Below, in pieces: positions 29,635 to 36,186 of a stretch of DNA of 36,186 bases (positions within the stretch are counted from its first letter, which is position 1; every line of letters starts with the position of its first letter). A program made the position numbers and the translations under genes. The notes beneath the pieces were generated by a model. That model was not told the origin of the DNA, ran no database searches, and saw only the letters and a list, made by a program, of their open reading frames with translations. Source of the stretch: Bifidobacterium merycicum DSM 6492 (GTDB taxonomy: Bacteria; Actinomycetota; Actinomycetes; Actinomycetales; Bifidobacteriaceae); assembly GCF_900129045.1 (NCBI RefSeq), contig NZ_FQTX01000009.1, forward strand, positions 1 to 36,186, given 5' to 3'.

Positions 29635-29985
29635 AGTGGTTGGCTGGGTGGCTAGCCGACTAGCCAGCTGATTTTGGGTGGTTTTGTGTGGTTTTGCGCT
29701 GCCCAAGTCAAGCCGGCCTGCCGGAACTCTGCCGAAGCATTGTGTTGATGCTTCGCTGATTCGCGTGAGGGGCTGTTCATTCTTTGCGAATGGGCAGCCC
29801 CTCGTTGCGTTTGAAAAAATGTCCGAAATTCTTTGTCAACAAATGTGTACAAAGAGATAGTGAAAAGGCTCCAATTGTTGCGATACGTTAAAACCCAGAA
29901 GAATCTTAAAAAGTCAATGAGAGAATACTGCTATTTCCTGTAATAGACTTGAGGGCAAATTAGAGTTCTACGTCAATGGAGTATT
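29635..29985. other. ileS-cas9 spacer
   Basis: The first 170 bases hold GGCTAGCCGACTAGCC (29651-29666), a hairpin CGAAGCAT/ATGCTTCG (29733-29755) and the ileS terminator. After about 29805 the base composition turns AT-rich. TTGTCA (about 29834) followed 17 bases later by GATAGT is a weak candidate promoter for cas9. No gene is seen. Confidence 0.6.
29767..29803 (+). terminator. ileS terminator
   Basis: GAGGGGCTG (29767-29775) pairs with CAGCCCCTC (29795-29803), and the stem extends inward through TTCATTC/GAATGGG. A short T-bearing tail (GTTGCGTTTG) follows. Confidence 0.75.
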
Positions 29986-32900
29986 ATGAGCCGGAAGAAT
30001 ATCGTTGAAGATTACGCCATCTCGCTGGATATAGGCAATGCTTCTGTTGGTTGGGTGGCGTTCACTCCTAATTATCGTCTTGTTCGCGCGAAGGGGCACG
30101 AACTTATTGGCGCAAGACTGTTCGAACCTGCTTCCACGGCGGAAGAGCGCAGAATGGCACGAACCACTCGTAGACGTTACTCCCGTCGTCGTTGGCGTCT
30201 ACGTATGCTCGATTCGATGTTTGACCAGGCGTTGTCCGAGGTGGATCCGTCTTTCCTGATGCGAAGGAAGTATTCTTGGGTTCACCCCGAAGATAAGAAT
30301 AATGAAGCTCATTGGTTCGGTGGCGTCCTGTTTGACTCGAATGAGCAGGATAAACGTTTTTACGAGAAATACCCGACTATCTACCATCTGCGTAAGAGTC
30401 TGATGGAAGATGATGAGCGTCATGATATCCGAGAGGTGTACCTCGCCATCCATCACATGATGAAATACCGTGGCAATTTCCTCACGGAAGGGGAATTGGC
30501 CCCTTCTTCGGTTTTCGATGTCGAGGATTTTCTCAAGTTGCTCACGGAAATTCTGCAATATGCTGATGAAGGCGAAACTGACGAGGATCTGGAGCTGCAA
30601 GCGGATGCGAATGGGCTGACGGAAGCGCTGTGCACGACCAAAGGCTCTCGCTCCATACGTGCTAAGAATGCAATCTCCATTCTCAAGGAAGGTGCCGCAT
30701 TATCGAAGCGCCAAGAGGCTATCATTAGCGCAGTGTTTGCCGGTCTTGAAGGCAACAAGCTTGATTTGACGAAGGTGTTTCCTAATAAGGAATACACTCC
30801 GGAAGACAAGAAAACGCTCGCGCTCTATTTCAACAAGGCCGATTATGACGAGAAGCGTGTCGCAATCGGTGATTCTGGTCTGCTGGAAGATAATGAATGC
30901 GATTTTCTGGACTGTATTCGGCGACAGTACAGTGCCATCGCTCTGAAACAGTTGCTGGGAGATTTCACAAGCATTTCTGAGTCGATGTGCGCGAGATATG
31001 AACAGCATCAACGGAATTGGGACTTGATCAAGCGCTATTGCCGCGAGGAATCCAATGCAGAAAATATCAACAAGAACTACGGCGCTCTCGTAGGCTGGGA
31101 AATCGTTGGAGGACAGCGAAGAAGCATTCGCGGTGCAAAGGATTATGAGAACAAGCGCAAAGCAGCCAACAAGTTCTTTGAGGAGCTGATTAAAGGTTCT
31201 GCTTTGCCTGATCAGGAGAAAGAAAGACTTCTCCACGACATCGAAAACGATGAGTTGTTCCCTGTCCAAAGGGACTCTGGCAATGGCGTGATTCCCTACC
31301 AGCTTCATCTGAACGAGTTGAAGAAAATCATCCAAAAACAGGGACGGTATTATCCCTTCCTTCTGGAGACCTATATCAAAGATGGTAAGGAAGTCAATAA
31401 GCTAGAAGGTTTGCTTGCTTTCCGCGTGCCTTATTATGTTGGTCCGCTGGTATCGCGTGATGACATGCAGTCGTCCGATAATAGGGAAAACCATTGGATG
31501 ATTCGCAGGAAGAAGGGCGTGATTACGCCTTGGAACTTTGACGAGATGGTCGACAAGGATAAGTCGGGACACGAATTCATTAAGAGCTTGGTAGGCACGG
31601 ACAGTTACCTGCTTGGCGAGACGACGTTGCCAAAGAATTCCCTGCTGTACCAGGAATTCGAAGTTCTTAACGAGTTGAACAATGTCCGTCTGTCTATTCG
31701 TACAGGCAACCATTGGGCTGATAAGCGGCGCGTGAGACTCGGCCACAATGAGAAGAAACTGTTGCTTGAAGAACTTTTTGCCAAACAAGCAACGGTCACC
31801 AAGAAGGCTGCTGAAAATCTGTTGCGCAGAACATATGGGAACACCTATGAGATTTCCGGCTTGGCTGACGAGAAGAAATTCGTCAGCTCCCTGTCTTCGT
31901 ATGGGAAGATGTGCCGCACGCTCAAAGCCTCCTATGTGAATAGTCATAAGGATGTCGTTGAGAAGATTATTGAGTTGCAGACGGTGTTTGAAGATAAAAA
32001 GACTTTGAAACATCAGCTGCAGCTGCTTGGCGAGCTGGCGGAAACCAATTGCGAGCTACTCTCCAATACGCATTACACAGGATGGGGCAAGCTGTCAAGA
32101 AAGCTTCTTACCTCGAAGGTAGTTGTTTGCAAGATCGGGAATGATTTCGCTCCTGCAAAACACAGCATTATCGAGATAATGCGGGAAACCGACCGTAATT
32201 TCATGGAGATCATCACCGACAAGGATCTTGGCGTCGGGGAGTGGATTAACCAGCAGAACGTTGGCGCCGAAGATGGGAACTCCTATCAGGATATAATCGA
32301 TGACCTGCGTGTTTCGCCTAAGGTCAAGAGAGGTATTAATCAGGCGATTCGAGTCATTGATGATATCTCGAAGGCAGTAGGCAAGGAACCGTCGCGGATT
32401 TTCCTGGAACTCGCGGGAGATGTCCAGCAAAGCGCCCGAACGGTATCTCGAAAGAGCCGTTTGCAGGGGTTGTACAAGAGTGCTGGATTGCAGAAGGAGT
32501 TCCGGGACCTCGCCGAATCATTGAACGAGTGCAGTGATAATGATTTGCGAGACGATAGGCTGTTCCTGTACTACACGCAGCTTGGTAAAGATATGTATAC
32601 CGGAGAACCCCTGAATCTTGACAGGCTCTCTTCGGATTACGATATCGATCACATCATCCCACAAGCCGTGACTCAGAATGATTCTCTGGATAATCGAGTT
32701 TTGGTAGCTCGCGTGGCAAACGCGAGAAAGACGGACTCTTTCCAGTATCTGCCCGAAATCGCGAACCGTATGAGGAATTTCTGGCAGGAGCTGTTGGACG
32801 CTGGTCTGATTAGTCGTGTTAAGTTCGACAGACTGAACCGTCAGAATGATTTCTCCTCCCACGAGAAGGAGCGTTTCGTCCAGCGCTCGCTGGTGGAGAC

Positions 32901-34158
32901 TCGTCAGATTATGAAGAACGTCGCCACCATCATGCGTAAGCGTTATGGAAACAGCGCTGCGGTAATCGGTTTGAATTCCGAGCTAACGAAGGAGATGCGT
33001 CAATATCTTGGTTTCTCTCATAAGAATCGTGACATTAACGACTATCACCATGCACAGGATGCGCTATGCCTCGGTATTGCGGGCCAGTTCGCCGTTAATA
33101 GGGGCTTCTTCGCTAATGGTATGGTTTCCGATGGGGCAGTGAATTCCTACAATCTGTATCTGCAGGATTACCTGCGCGGATACAGGGAGAAAATGAGTGC
33201 TGGGGAGCGCAGAAGAAATAAAGCGTTTGGCTTTATTGTTGGTTCGATGAATTCCCAGGATTCAGACAAGCGTATCAATCCTAAGACGGGAGAGATTGCT
33301 TGGGATGATGAAGATAAAGTATATCTTCGCAAGGTGATGAATTACCGTAAGATGCTCATCACTCAGAAGGTGGGTGATAGCTTTGGCGCGTTGTATAACG
33401 AGACCCGTTACGGAACTTCAGCGAAGGAAGGTGTCAATGGCATCCCCTTCGATAAGCACAAGCAGGATACTGCTTTGTATGGCGGCTTTTCGAGCGCGAA
33501 GACGGTCTACGTCGTTCTGATTGAAGCGAAGAAGAAAACACGTCTAGTGAATATCACGATGCAGGAATACGCCGAGTTGGGAGATCATCCTTCCGACGAT
33601 GCACTGAGAGCGGTTCTGGCTAAGAAAAAGCCGGAATATGGGAAGGCGCGCATTCTGCTACGTCACATTCCTCCGATGCAGCTGATTCGTTATGGTGGGG
33701 CCTTGGTTACGGTCAAGTCTGCCACTGAGCTGAATAATGCTCAGCAGCTATGGCTTCCATATAAGGAATATTGTCTGTTCGATGATGTGATAAGTTCTGC
33801 GATCGATGTGGATGAAGCGCGGCTTTGCCAGATGCTTGACGTGATTTTGGATGCCATACAGAAGTATTACCCGAAGCAGCGTTTTGACGAGACTGGCTTG
33901 TCTGCTTTCCACAATGCTTTCAACGAGGTTTCTGCGGAAGACAAGAAGAGAATTGTCGGGGAAATGGTAGGAATGCTGCATGCTGATGCAAAGAATGCGA
34001 ACTTGAAAGCTCTTGGAATGAGTGGGAGGTGGGGACGCATGAGTAATCAGTCAGGATATACTTTTGCTGATTCTGACGAGTTCATCTTCCAGTCGCCGTC
34101 TGGGCTGTTTGAGAAGAGAATCAGTGTTGGCGAGTTGAAGAAGAGGAGAGCGAGATAA
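29986..34158 (+). CDS. cas9: Cas9, type II-A
   Basis: A 1390-residue RNA-guided DNA endonuclease that cuts both strands of a target matching the crRNA. RuvC-I is SLDIGNASVGW with Asp15; the Arg-rich bridge helix (RRMARTTRRRYSRRRWRLRML) follows near residue 65. RuvC-II is IFLELAG with Glu808. The HNH domain is YDIDHIIPQ with Asp888 and His889 and a third residue Asn912; the spacing His-to-Asn (23) equals that of the S. pyogenes enzyme. RuvC-III is YHHAQDA with His1022 and Asp1025. All catalytic residues are present, and the size is close to S. pyogenes Cas9 (1368). GGAG lies five bases before the ATG at 29986. It heads cas1, cas2 and csn2, with a tracrRNA gene in between on the opposite strand. 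Base composition is lower in GC than the neighbours, suggesting transfer. Confidence 0.97.
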   Translation: MSRKNIVEDYAISLDIGNASVGWVAFTPNYRLVRAKGHELIGARLFEPASTAEERRMARTTRRRYSRRRWRLRMLDSMFDQALSEVDPSFLMRRKYSWVHPEDKNNEAHWFGGVLFDSNEQDKRFYEKYPTIYHLRKSLMEDDERHDIREVYLAIHHMMKYRGNFLTEGELAPSSVFDVEDFLKLLTEILQYADEGETDEDLELQADANGLTEALCTTKGSRSIRAKNAISILKEGAALSKRQEAIISAVFAGLEGNKLDLTKVFPNKEYTPEDKKTLALYFNKADYDEKRVAIGDSGLLEDNECDFLDCIRRQYSAIALKQLLGDFTSISESMCARYEQHQRNWDLIKRYCREESNAENINKNYGALVGWEIVGGQRRSIRGAKDYENKRKAANKFFEELIKGSALPDQEKERLLHDIENDELFPVQRDSGNGVIPYQLHLNELKKIIQKQGRYYPFLLETYIKDGKEVNKLEGLLAFRVPYYVGPLVSRDDMQSSDNRENHWMIRRKKGVITPWNFDEMVDKDKSGHEFIKSLVGTDSYLLGETTLPKNSLLYQEFEVLNELNNVRLSIRTGNHWADKRRVRLGHNEKKLLLEELFAKQATVTKKAAENLLRRTYGNTYEISGLADEKKFVSSLSSYGKMCRTLKASYVNSHKDVVEKIIELQTVFEDKKTLKHQLQLLGELAETNCELLSNTHYTGWGKLSRKLLTSKVVVCKIGNDFAPAKHSIIEIMRETDRNFMEIITDKDLGVGEWINQQNVGAEDGNSYQDIIDDLRVSPKVKRGINQAIRVIDDISKAVGKEPSRIFLELAGDVQQSARTVSRKSRLQGLYKSAGLQKEFRDLAESLNECSDNDLRDDRLFLYYTQLGKDMYTGEPLNLDRLSSDYDIDHIIPQAVTQNDSLDNRVLVARVANARKTDSFQYLPEIANRMRNFWQELLDAGLISRVKFDRLNRQNDFSSHEKERFVQRSLVETRQIMKNVATIMRKRYGNSAAVIGLNSELTKEMRQYLGFSHKNRDINDYHHAQDALCLGIAGQFAVNRGFFANGMVSDGAVNSYNLYLQDYLRGYREKMSAGERRRNKAFGFIVGSMNSQDSDKRINPKTGEIAWDDEDKVYLRKVMNYRKMLITQKVGDSFGALYNETRYGTSAKEGVNGIPFDKHKQDTALYGGFSSAKTVYVVLIEAKKKTRLVNITMQEYAELGDHPSDDALRAVLAKKKPEYGKARILLRHIPPMQLIRYGGALVTVKSATELNNAQQLWLPYKEYCLFDDVISSAIDVDEARLCQMLDVILDAIQKYYPKQRFDETGLSAFHNAFNEVSAEDKKRIVGEMVGMLHADAKNANLKALGMSGRWGRMSNQSGYTFADSDEFIFQSPSGLFEKRISVGELKKRRAR

Positions 34159-34303
34159 GAAAGAGGGGCTCCCGGCGCTGCCGGGAGCCCCATGGCCATA
34201 AGGCCAGGTCTAAAACCTTCTGAAGCTTGACCCAAGGGTCTTGCTTTATTTCAATATATGCCTATCAGGTCAAGGACCTAGACACCTTGGACTGCGACCA
34301 AAC
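34157..34303 (-). ncRNA. Probable tracrRNA
   Basis: Read on the minus strand: an anti-repeat (34285 to 34248; plus-strand core TGCCTATCAGGTCAAGGAC preceded by ATTTCA), a nexus hairpin GACCC-TT-GGGTC (34240-34229), small stems AGGT/ACCT (34218-34206) and TGGCC/GGCCA (34206-34193), then an 11-base GC stem GGGGCTCCCGG/CCGGGAGCCCC (34191-34165) followed by TCTTTCTT. The T-rich tail is on the minus strand only, which fixes the direction. This order (anti-repeat, nexus, hairpins, terminator) is that of type II-A tracrRNAs. TATAAA on the minus strand (34316-34311) may be the -10 box. No repeat array is in the window to confirm pairing. Confidence 0.75.
34165..34191 (-). terminator. tracrRNA terminator, abutting the cas9 3' end
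   Basis: A perfect 11-base inverted repeat with a five-base loop, followed on the minus strand by TCTTTCTTATC. On the plus strand no T-run follows, so its main role is to end the minus-strand RNA. It may also slow read-through of cas9 mRNA. Confidence 0.88.
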
Positions 34304-34316
34304 AATCCTTTATAAG
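34287..34316 (+). promoter_or_regulatory. Promoter for cas1-cas2-csn2
   Basis: TTGGAC (34287-34292) and TATAAG (34311-34316) are 18 bases apart. Transcription would start near 34323, giving a leader of ~14 bases before cas1. It overlaps the 5' end of the minus-strand tracrRNA, so the two promoters may interfere. Confidence 0.6.
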
Positions 34317-34336
34317 AATAGCACAATGGAGTGAGT

Positions 34337-35221
34337 ATGGCGTGGCGGAATGTTGTGATTACCAAACATTGCAAGATCTCGACAAAATTAAAATTGTTGG
34401 TGGTCCAGACGGATGATGACGTTTACCAGTTTCCTCTTGATGATTTGGGTACTGTGATGATTTCCACGACTCAAGCGGTTGTGACGGCTAATGCGATGGC
34501 GAATCTATTGAAACGTGATGTCAAAGTCATCTTTTGTGACGAAAAGCATCTTCCGATTGGGGAGACGAATCCATATGAGACTGAATCGAGTCGTCGCTCA
34601 TGCATTATTCAGCAGATGTGTTGGTCGGAGGATCGTAGGAATATCCTATGGCAGCGTATTGTTCAAGAGAAAATCGCTCATCAAATGCAGGTGCTGGAGA
34701 GGTGGTGTCCTTGTTCTGACGCGGAGAAAATCGGCGCACTTGCTGCAGATGTTAAGTCTGGAGATTCTGATAACCGTGAGGCTGTTGCTGCACATATGTA
34801 TTTCCCGAGGTTGTTTACGTACGAATTCGTTAGATCTGACGATGACAATCAGATAAATGGACTACTGGACTACGGTTATGCGATTCTTATGTCAGAAGTG
34901 GCTAGAAAAATAGCTGAAATAGGCTATCTTACGGAATTCGGTATTCATCATGATAGCGAGAGAAATCCTTTCAATTTGGCGTGCGATTTTATGGAGCCCT
35001 TCCGCCCGTTTGTTGATCAGGAAGTGTTCAAGCTTAGCGGCAGGTCTCTTGAAAGCGAAGTTAAAGAAGAACTCATCAAGTTGATGAGGACTGATCTGCC
35101 TCAATATGGGACAACAATTACGCAATTAATCAATGTATTCGTTCGTGATTCATTACGGTATCTGGCGGGGGAGGGCTGCCTTCCTGAATTGGGGTTTTGG
35201 CGGTGCGATACAGAGTCATGA
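34337..35221 (+). CDS. cas1: Cas1, type II spacer-integration nuclease
   Basis: A 294-residue Cas1, the integrase that with Cas2 inserts new spacers into the array. The N-terminus MAWRNVVITKHCKISTKLKLL is characteristic of type II Cas1. The metal-binding residues are Glu148 (NREAVAAHMYF), His205 (GIHHDSERNPFNL) and Glu220 (MEPFRP); these numbers are almost identical to those in the S. pyogenes protein. The ATG at 34337 has GGAG about six bases upstream; a GTG six bases earlier is possible. Its stop overlaps the cas2 start (ATGA). It has its own promoter. Confidence 0.96.
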   Translation: MAWRNVVITKHCKISTKLKLLVVQTDDDVYQFPLDDLGTVMISTTQAVVTANAMANLLKRDVKVIFCDEKHLPIGETNPYETESSRRSCIIQQMCWSEDRRNILWQRIVQEKIAHQMQVLERWCPCSDAEKIGALAADVKSGDSDNREAVAAHMYFPRLFTYEFVRSDDDNQINGLLDYGYAILMSEVARKIAEIGYLTEFGIHHDSERNPFNLACDFMEPFRPFVDQEVFKLSGRSLESEVKEELIKLMRTDLPQYGTTITQLINVFVRDSLRYLAGEGCLPELGFWRCDTES

Positions 35222-35523
35222 GAGTCATAGTGTTTTTCGATCTTCCGATGAAGACGCCTAGTGAGCGCAAAGAATATGCGTCTTTTCGGAAGAATCTTAT
35301 TCAGGAGGGTTTCCTGATGGTTCAGGAATCCGTATATGTGAGAATTGCTACTACTCGAGAATCGGCTCGCTTTCTGGAAAATCGTGTTGCGAGTTTTGTG
35401 CCGAGTGCTGGTCTGGTTCAATCGTTGATTGTTACTGAGAAACAGTATGCGTCCATTAGATTTCTGTTGGGAAGAGGAAAGAGCGATGTTCGGGATTCGG
35501 ATGACAGGACGGTGATTATATGA
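35218..35523 (+). CDS. cas2: Cas2
   Basis: A 101-residue ferredoxin-fold protein that bridges two Cas1 dimers in the adaptation complex. MRVIVFFDLP with Asp8 is the usual first strand, and QESVYVRI is the second typical motif. The ATG at 35218 overlaps the cas1 stop by four bases and was preferred over a TTG 21 bases upstream. It overlaps csn2 in the same manner. Confidence 0.96.
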   Translation: MRVIVFFDLPMKTPSERKEYASFRKNLIQEGFLMVQESVYVRIATTRESARFLENRVASFVPSAGLVQSLIVTEKQYASIRFLLGRGKSDVRDSDDRTVII

Positions 35524-36182
35524 TTGACAGTATTGTTTTCTATCCCTTGGATTCCGTGTCGCTGGAACCAGGTCTTAACGTAATCGCATGCGAGCTTCCA
35601 AGTGTGCTGTACAAATTCGTGCAAGGTCTTCGAGGTGAAGATGATGATGTTGTTCTTACGGAATGTGATAAAGAGGTTTTGACGGCGAAGAAGGTGCTAT
35701 TCGTAGGTGATTGCGCGGGAGTACTAGATTATGATGCTTTGTTTCAAAAGGCTGCACTTAAGAAGTTAAATGACGGATTTAATCCTGAAGAATTGAGTAG
35801 ATTATTGTTGTTGCAAACTGAGATAAAGTCGATTATTCAAGAAGAAATATGGAGAGAGGATTTGCCTCTGAGTATTCTTGATGAAGTTGACATAAAGTCA
35901 ATGATAGCAATGGCTAAACCGCGTGTTGATACCAGTTCTCTGGGCTCTCTTTATGATAAAATTCAACTGGTAGTTGATACTGCCGGCGCTCTTGCCGAGA
36001 GCAGGATGCTTGTGATGCTTCATATAACTCAATATTGTGATAACGACCAATTACTTTATTTGCATCGAGAATTATTAAGACACCATATGCAGCTTCTTGA
36101 CCTAGAATGCTGCGACAAAAAAGTCCTTTTGACAGAAGGAAGAAGCGAGTATATCGATGGAGACTATGTTCAGTTCTCATAG
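35520..36182 (+). CDS. csn2: Csn2, type II-A adaptation protein
   Basis: A 220-residue protein, exactly the length typical of the short Csn2 form. Csn2 forms a calcium-stabilised tetrameric ring that binds DNA ends during spacer acquisition, and its presence defines subtype II-A. Sequence is weakly conserved in this family; I rely on position after cas2, length, and features such as DSVSLEPGLNVIACE near the N-terminus and the helical middle. The ATG at 35520 overlaps the cas2 stop (ATGA). It is the most AT-rich gene in the window. It ends four bases before the right edge; the repeat array should follow. Confidence 0.9.
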   Translation: MIDSIVFYPLDSVSLEPGLNVIACELPSVLYKFVQGLRGEDDDVVLTECDKEVLTAKKVLFVGDCAGVLDYDALFQKAALKKLNDGFNPEELSRLLLLQTEIKSIIQEEIWREDLPLSILDEVDIKSMIAMAKPRVDTSSLGSLYDKIQLVVDTAGALAESRMLVMLHITQYCDNDQLLYLHRELLRHHMQLLDLECCDKKVLLTEGRSEYIDGDYVQFS

Positions 36183-36186
36183 AACG

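Follow-up and report, generated by a model that had tools for sequence, protein, structure and literature searches.

A predicted minus-strand tracrRNA gene between cas9 and cas1 of Bifidobacterium merycicum, and a hairpin 5' of its anti-repeat shared by Bifidobacteriaceae loci

What is encoded between cas9 and cas1 of Bifidobacterium merycicum DSM 6492, and where does it begin? The window analysed here is the whole of contig C8 (positions 1–36186, 36186 bases), from a genome of 2.27 Mb in 15 contigs. Based on its sequence, the interval 34157–34309 is read as the minus-strand trans-activating CRISPR RNA (tracrRNA) gene of a Bifidobacterium type II-A locus of clustered regularly interspaced short palindromic repeats (CRISPR), with a probability of about 0.92. 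This reading follows from complementarity to the repeat, the layout of the elements, and the co-variation of repeat and anti-repeat over seven loci. The tracrRNA itself is ordinary, and its place and strand were already published for B. merycicum in 2015. What looks new is a 5' hairpin with an invariant loop. The elements, from 5' to 3' of the RNA, are as follows.

34315–34323, minus strand: predicted extended −10 box, TGCTATTCT, matching 6 of 8 consensus positions
34157–34309, minus strand: predicted primary tracrRNA, beginning near 34308 and ending with the T-rich tail (fold and repeat complementarity; start placed from the −10 box)
34288–34309, minus strand: 5' hairpin with the paired core 34289–34308, GGAUUGU-UUGGUC-GCAGUCC (fold, seven-locus alignment and pattern scans)
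34248–34286, minus strand: anti-repeat (duplex with the genome's repeat copy and with the published B. merycicum repeat)
34223–34246, minus strand: two-part nexus, AAGC/GCUU plus GACC/GGUC (fold of the window and seven other loci)
34206–34218, minus strand: small hairpin AGGUU-UUA-GACCU (fold)
34194–34205, minus strand: small hairpin GGCC-UUAU-GGCC (fold; counterpart seen in the alignment of relatives)
34165–34191, minus strand: terminator stem of 12 pairs (11 G-C) with a 3-base loop; the arms 34165–34176 and 34180–34191 are complementary at 12 of 12 positions
34157–34164, minus strand: T-rich terminator tail, TCTTTCTT, adjoining the cas9 stop codon (sequence)

The layout is that of a tracrRNA, the anti-repeat being followed on its 3' side by a nexus and terminal hairpins, and the predicted RNA is about 153 nt long when counted from the putative start. 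An earlier sequence-only reading of the window had proposed a minus-strand tracrRNA between cas9 and cas1, and its hairpins, their order and their coordinates are present. It had the 3' end of the RNA touching the cas9 stop, and the tail does adjoin the stop codon at 34156–34158. The two tiny hairpins before a very strong terminator were also seen correctly. The nexus, which it drew as one GACCC/GGGTC stem, is folded as two stacked stems instead. Its 5' limit, 34303, cuts the conserved hairpin, and the RNA probably starts further 5'. The minus strand of 34157–34309 folds at −69.6 kcal/mol (z −4.6) and that of 34157–34303 at −63.9 kcal/mol (z −4.0); in both cases, 0 of 200 shuffles were as good.

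The anti-repeat of a tracrRNA is complementary to the repeat of its own system. Here, the array beside the cas genes is unreadable in the window, as C8 stops at 36186, 4 bases past csn2. One repeat copy opens contig C5 of the same genome, where five bases are followed by GTTTCAGATGCCTGTCAGATCAAGGACTTACCAC (bases 6–41). With 3 mismatches allowed, the first 27 repeat bases match the genome here and nowhere else. A 14-base core, searched with at most 2 mismatches, gives 31 genomic sites (reversed control, 11), of which only the one at the C5 start was followed. We infer that C5 follows C8, which would join the repeat copy to csn2. The copy may be the degenerate last repeat of the array. According to Table 1 of PMC4521832, B. 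merycicum LMG 11341 has a type II-A system with the repeat GTTTCAGATGCCTGTCAGATCAAGGACCTAGACCAC. The published repeat and the C5 copy are identical across the first 27 bases. From the anti-repeat, the sequence-only reading had predicted a repeat outside the window that begins with GTTTCA or ATTTCA and contains a core near TGCCTATCAGGTCAAGGAC. The actual repeat begins with GTTTCA, and its core is TGCCTGTCAGATCAAGGAC, identical at 17 of 19 positions. A reading of raw sequence could thus predict a repeat that the window does not contain. The alignment which it proposed against an array downstream of 36182 could be done with the C5 copy instead.

Both strands of the window were scanned for partners of each repeat, with a step of 60 bases. 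Minus 34227–34286 is the best partner of both, at −42.1 kcal/mol for the C5 copy and −49.7 kcal/mol for the published repeat. The next-best places in the window for either repeat reach −32.5 kcal/mol. Among 2000 base shuffles per repeat, the minima are −31.6 kcal/mol (C5 copy) and −32.0 kcal/mol (published repeat). Both repeats pair with 34248–34286, where complementarity had been expected at 34248–34285.

Comparison of related loci sheds light on the specificity of this pairing. A cas1 search at E 1e-25 or better matched 18 of 189 genomes of Bifidobacteriaceae. Seven loci with cas1 identity of at least 49% were used: the window, G225, G158, G222, G155, G010, and G150. All seven run from the cas9 end through a minus-strand tracrRNA to cas1, cas2, and csn2, and the array of the six relatives lies after csn2. 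Six of the seven anti-repeats pair best with their own repeat. For the seventh, the best partner comes from another genome but has the same sequence, the repeats of G155 and G158 being identical. The mean duplex energy is −48.1 for cognate and −24.3 for non-cognate pairs, the latter including two shared-repeat cells, and the published B. merycicum repeat represents the cognate of the window. Complementarity of the anti-repeat to its own repeat is thereby cross-checked in seven loci. When an eighth locus, from G053 (see below), is added, seven of the eight fold the nexus as a pair of stacked stems, and G222 deviates; in G053, three pairs make up the lower stem. The nexus region of G222 (L050, minus strand, around 1334–1410) contains a tandem copy of TCAAGCAATGAG and no two-part nexus fold.

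Directly 5' of the anti-repeat, on the minus strand, all seven loci have a hairpin whose loop region contains TTGGTC. The loop UUGGUC is invariant across the loci. When the sequences are aligned on the loop, the 7-bp inner stem is unbroken in all seven (49 of 49 pair cells). If one arm is slid, only 12 of 35, 18 of 42, 17 of 49, and 11 of 42 cells pair. Two-sided changes are seen at six of the seven inner pairs. There are nine G·U cells and no A·C cells, which favours a minus-strand RNA. In six of the seven loci, the minus strand also gives the more stable fold of the two strands. A scan of the window and of L024–L064 for TGGTC with at least 7 continuous pairs returned the hairpin place only.

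An independent pattern, composed of the loop and the lower stem sequence without any stem requirement, is found in 8 of the 189 family genomes and 5 of 16 genera, and never in the reversed control. Seven of these genomes are those of the known loci, and G053 is new. In G053, cas1 starts more than 200 bases from the hairpin, which indicates that the hairpin goes with the anti-repeat there. The G053 tracrRNA (L070, contig C129) is located near the start of cas1. Past its terminator, the short stretch codes for other genes, with no cas9 seen among them; the cas9 match of this genome is on a different contig, whose end truncates it. Outside the family, the pattern is absent from the 7 genomes with Cas9 relatives that were scanned. 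A wider pattern gave 2 matches in 301 in Lactobacillaceae, against 13 for the reversed control; both are in open frames without a continuous stem and were rejected. Literature searches, with text passages of PMC4521832, PMC7284854 and PMC11417352, turned up no account of such a conserved hairpin ahead of the anti-repeat.

The start of the RNA can be placed by the promoter. Here, the extended −10 consensus TGnTATAAT was scored at 8 positions. A putative box lies 5–11 bases before the hairpin in all eight loci, with a score of 7 in six of them, 6 in the window, and 5 in G150. Shuffled stretches score at least 6 in 10% of cases and at least 7 in 1.1%. The position of the box suggests a start at the foot of the hairpin, near 34308.

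Several observations weigh against the reading or parts of it. Only a single repeat copy is assembled, and its joining to csn2 is presumed. The plus strand of 34157–34303 folds equally well or better (−64.7 kcal/mol, z −5.3), so the strand is not decided by folding alone; it is the repeat pairing that points to the minus strand. The folding check proposed by the earlier reading succeeds against shuffles, 200 of 200 being beaten, and fails to tell the strand. No Rfam family reaches its gathering score in the window (0 matches). The sigma-70 scan, which requires a −35 box, lists no promoter at the −10 box. As for the hairpin, five of the nine G·U cells belong to the loop-closing pair, and the count is four to zero without it. 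When arms are exchanged between loci, 230 of 294 cells remain paired, which indicates that the loci are related and the change modest. In G150, the plus strand of the hairpin folds better than the minus strand (−9.8 versus −7.3). The stem of G053 is interrupted, with CAAG/CUUG and CGU/GCG around mismatches and with outer pairs, at −13.5 kcal/mol. G199, a distant member of the family, has no hairpin in either the hairpin scan or the pattern scan.

What could the hairpin do? The RNA would be transcribed from the extended −10 promoter and would open with a short hairpin bearing the invariant UUGGUC loop. It would then pair with the repeats of the precursor CRISPR RNA (pre-crRNA), leading to trimming and loading of Cas9. 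In type II systems, RNase III cuts the duplex of repeat and anti-repeat, and Cas9 holds the trimmed pair. For two Bifidobacterium II-A systems, the cuts were inferred to be in the upper stem, according to the accessible text of PMC4521832. The hairpin would lie 5' of such RNase III cuts; it would then be lost on maturation and should act on the precursor. Most likely, it would shield the 5' end of the precursor and present the loop for recognition. Shielding accounts for the stem and not for the invariant loop; recognition of the loop accounts for both, via a hypothetical partner.

It can be speculated, as a doubtful but possible extension, that II-A tracrRNAs of Bifidobacteriaceae have an extra 5' domain whose UUGGUC loop is a handle of the precursor. 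The loop might form a kissing loop with GACCA of the repeat, or be the site of a partner not yet known, and annealing might be initiated by the loop as in antisense RNAs. The loop bases UUGG match YUNR, the U-turn motif of antisense RNAs. Of the eight repeats compared, five have GACCA at position 31 (B. merycicum, B. bifidum, G225, G158/G155, and G222), and that of G010 has it at position 18; it is absent from the repeat of G150 and from the single copy of this genome. Pairing between loop and repeat is speculative, because the anti-repeat already covers the GACCA end of the repeat. No GACCA was seen in the leaders of the six relatives, which were read by eye. If the hairpin is real, it is a part of the tracrRNA omitted by repeat-based predictions, with a loop unchanged in five genera. 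If the proposal is true, it bears on how the precursor tracrRNA finds pre-crRNA, or on its stability, before RNase III acts.

The palindrome could also work as DNA, as an operator for a dimeric protein at the tracrRNA promoter. It overlaps the predicted transcription start, a frequent operator site. In this palindrome, however, the arms vary and the middle is invariant, and its breaks on the minus strand are nine G·U and no A·C, to which an operator would be indifferent, although the seven loci are related. An operator is thus unlikely. A role of the hairpin in the opposite transcript, as part of the leader of the cas1 mRNA, appears quite unlikely. In the window, 28 bases separate the hairpin from the start of cas1 that follows it, and this and the G150 energies fit such a leader; the same nine-to-zero count, the better minus-strand fold in the other six loci and in G053, and the distance of cas1 from the hairpin in G053 do not.

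Two other explanations concern the RNA as a whole. A long-form tracrRNA (tracr-L-like), a natural single guide which represses the cas9 promoter, is known in the type II-A system of S. pyogenes, according to the accessible text of PMC11417352. Such an RNA is very improbable here, as no repeat-like stretch is seen upstream of the anti-repeat, and no exact word longer than 9 bases is shared with 29635–30000, the sole 9-base word having no adjacent NGG. It is hardly credible that the structure is a mere terminator region common to convergent transcripts, without any tracrRNA. The terminator is the strongest single element, but the specific repeat pairing and the way repeat and anti-repeat change together across seven loci go beyond a terminator.

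The genes around the tracrRNA are in the plus-strand order cas9-cas1-cas2-csn2, which is operon-like. By family models, the gene content is that of type II-A, and the presence of csn2 makes the locus type II-A.

29986–34158, plus strand: cas9 (type II-A, 1390 aa; TIGR01865, 822.5 bits; Pfam Cas9_REC, Cas9_PI, HNH_4, Cas9_RuvC, and Cas9-BH)
34337–35221, plus strand: cas1 (TIGR03639, 271 bits)
35218–35523, plus strand: cas2 (TIGR01573, 73.9 bits)
35520–36182, plus strand: csn2 (TIGR01866, 77.4 bits)

Cas9 of the window is 88% identical to that of B. pongonis 64T4 over residues 1–718. It is 89% identical to that of G051 (L046 1–126, contig C37) over residues 1–719. On this B. pongonis-like contig, the similarity ends at residue 718–719 and about 125 bases of contig remain; cas9 may carry an insertion, or the contig end may be mis-joined. 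The cas1 matches of G158 and G155 (L049 and L051) are each reported with one internal TGA, which may simply be the normal stop codon, if the match extends beyond it. The leaders of L044, L048, L049, L050, L051, and L053 end in a common AAGGCTAT before the first repeat, probably a leader end conserved among these arrays.

Beyond the seven loci, in G199 (cas1 32%), cas1 is preceded by a cas9-like frame, and a stretch resembling an anti-repeat can be made out by eye on the minus strand; the pairing scan returned solely the repeat's own complement. G160 (cas1 39%) has no cas9 beside cas1 and was left out of the set. The remaining nine cas1 matches (30–33%) were scanned for the hairpin only, and none has it. 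A cas1 search at E 1e-40 over 396 genomes of the order returned the window only. Searched as DNA, the tracrRNA region gave its self-match and a 25-base match in G098 only.

The accessible text of PMC4521832 describes the predicted tracrRNA of B. merycicum on the minus strand between cas9 and cas1, with a double-stemmed nexus. The window shares this place, strand and double-stemmed nexus with the LMG 11341 system. In the text passages compared, no hairpin on the 5' side of the anti-repeat is mentioned for B. merycicum. According to the accessible text of PMC7284854, the II-A tracrRNAs of B. angulatum (132 nt) and B. bifidum (137 nt) are also between cas9 and cas1. The window resembles them in this place, in the nexus, and in the three terminal hairpins. 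Judged from length alone, these RNAs would end approximately where the 5' hairpin begins. A II-A locus of Lactobacillus sp. (L032) likewise has a minus-strand tracrRNA between cas9 and cas1 and the same gene order. It lacks the UUGGUC hairpin, but has its own 8-bp inverted repeat with a different loop, about 52 bases 5' of its anti-repeat. Based on this inverted repeat, some upstream hairpin may be distributed more widely than Bifidobacteriaceae.
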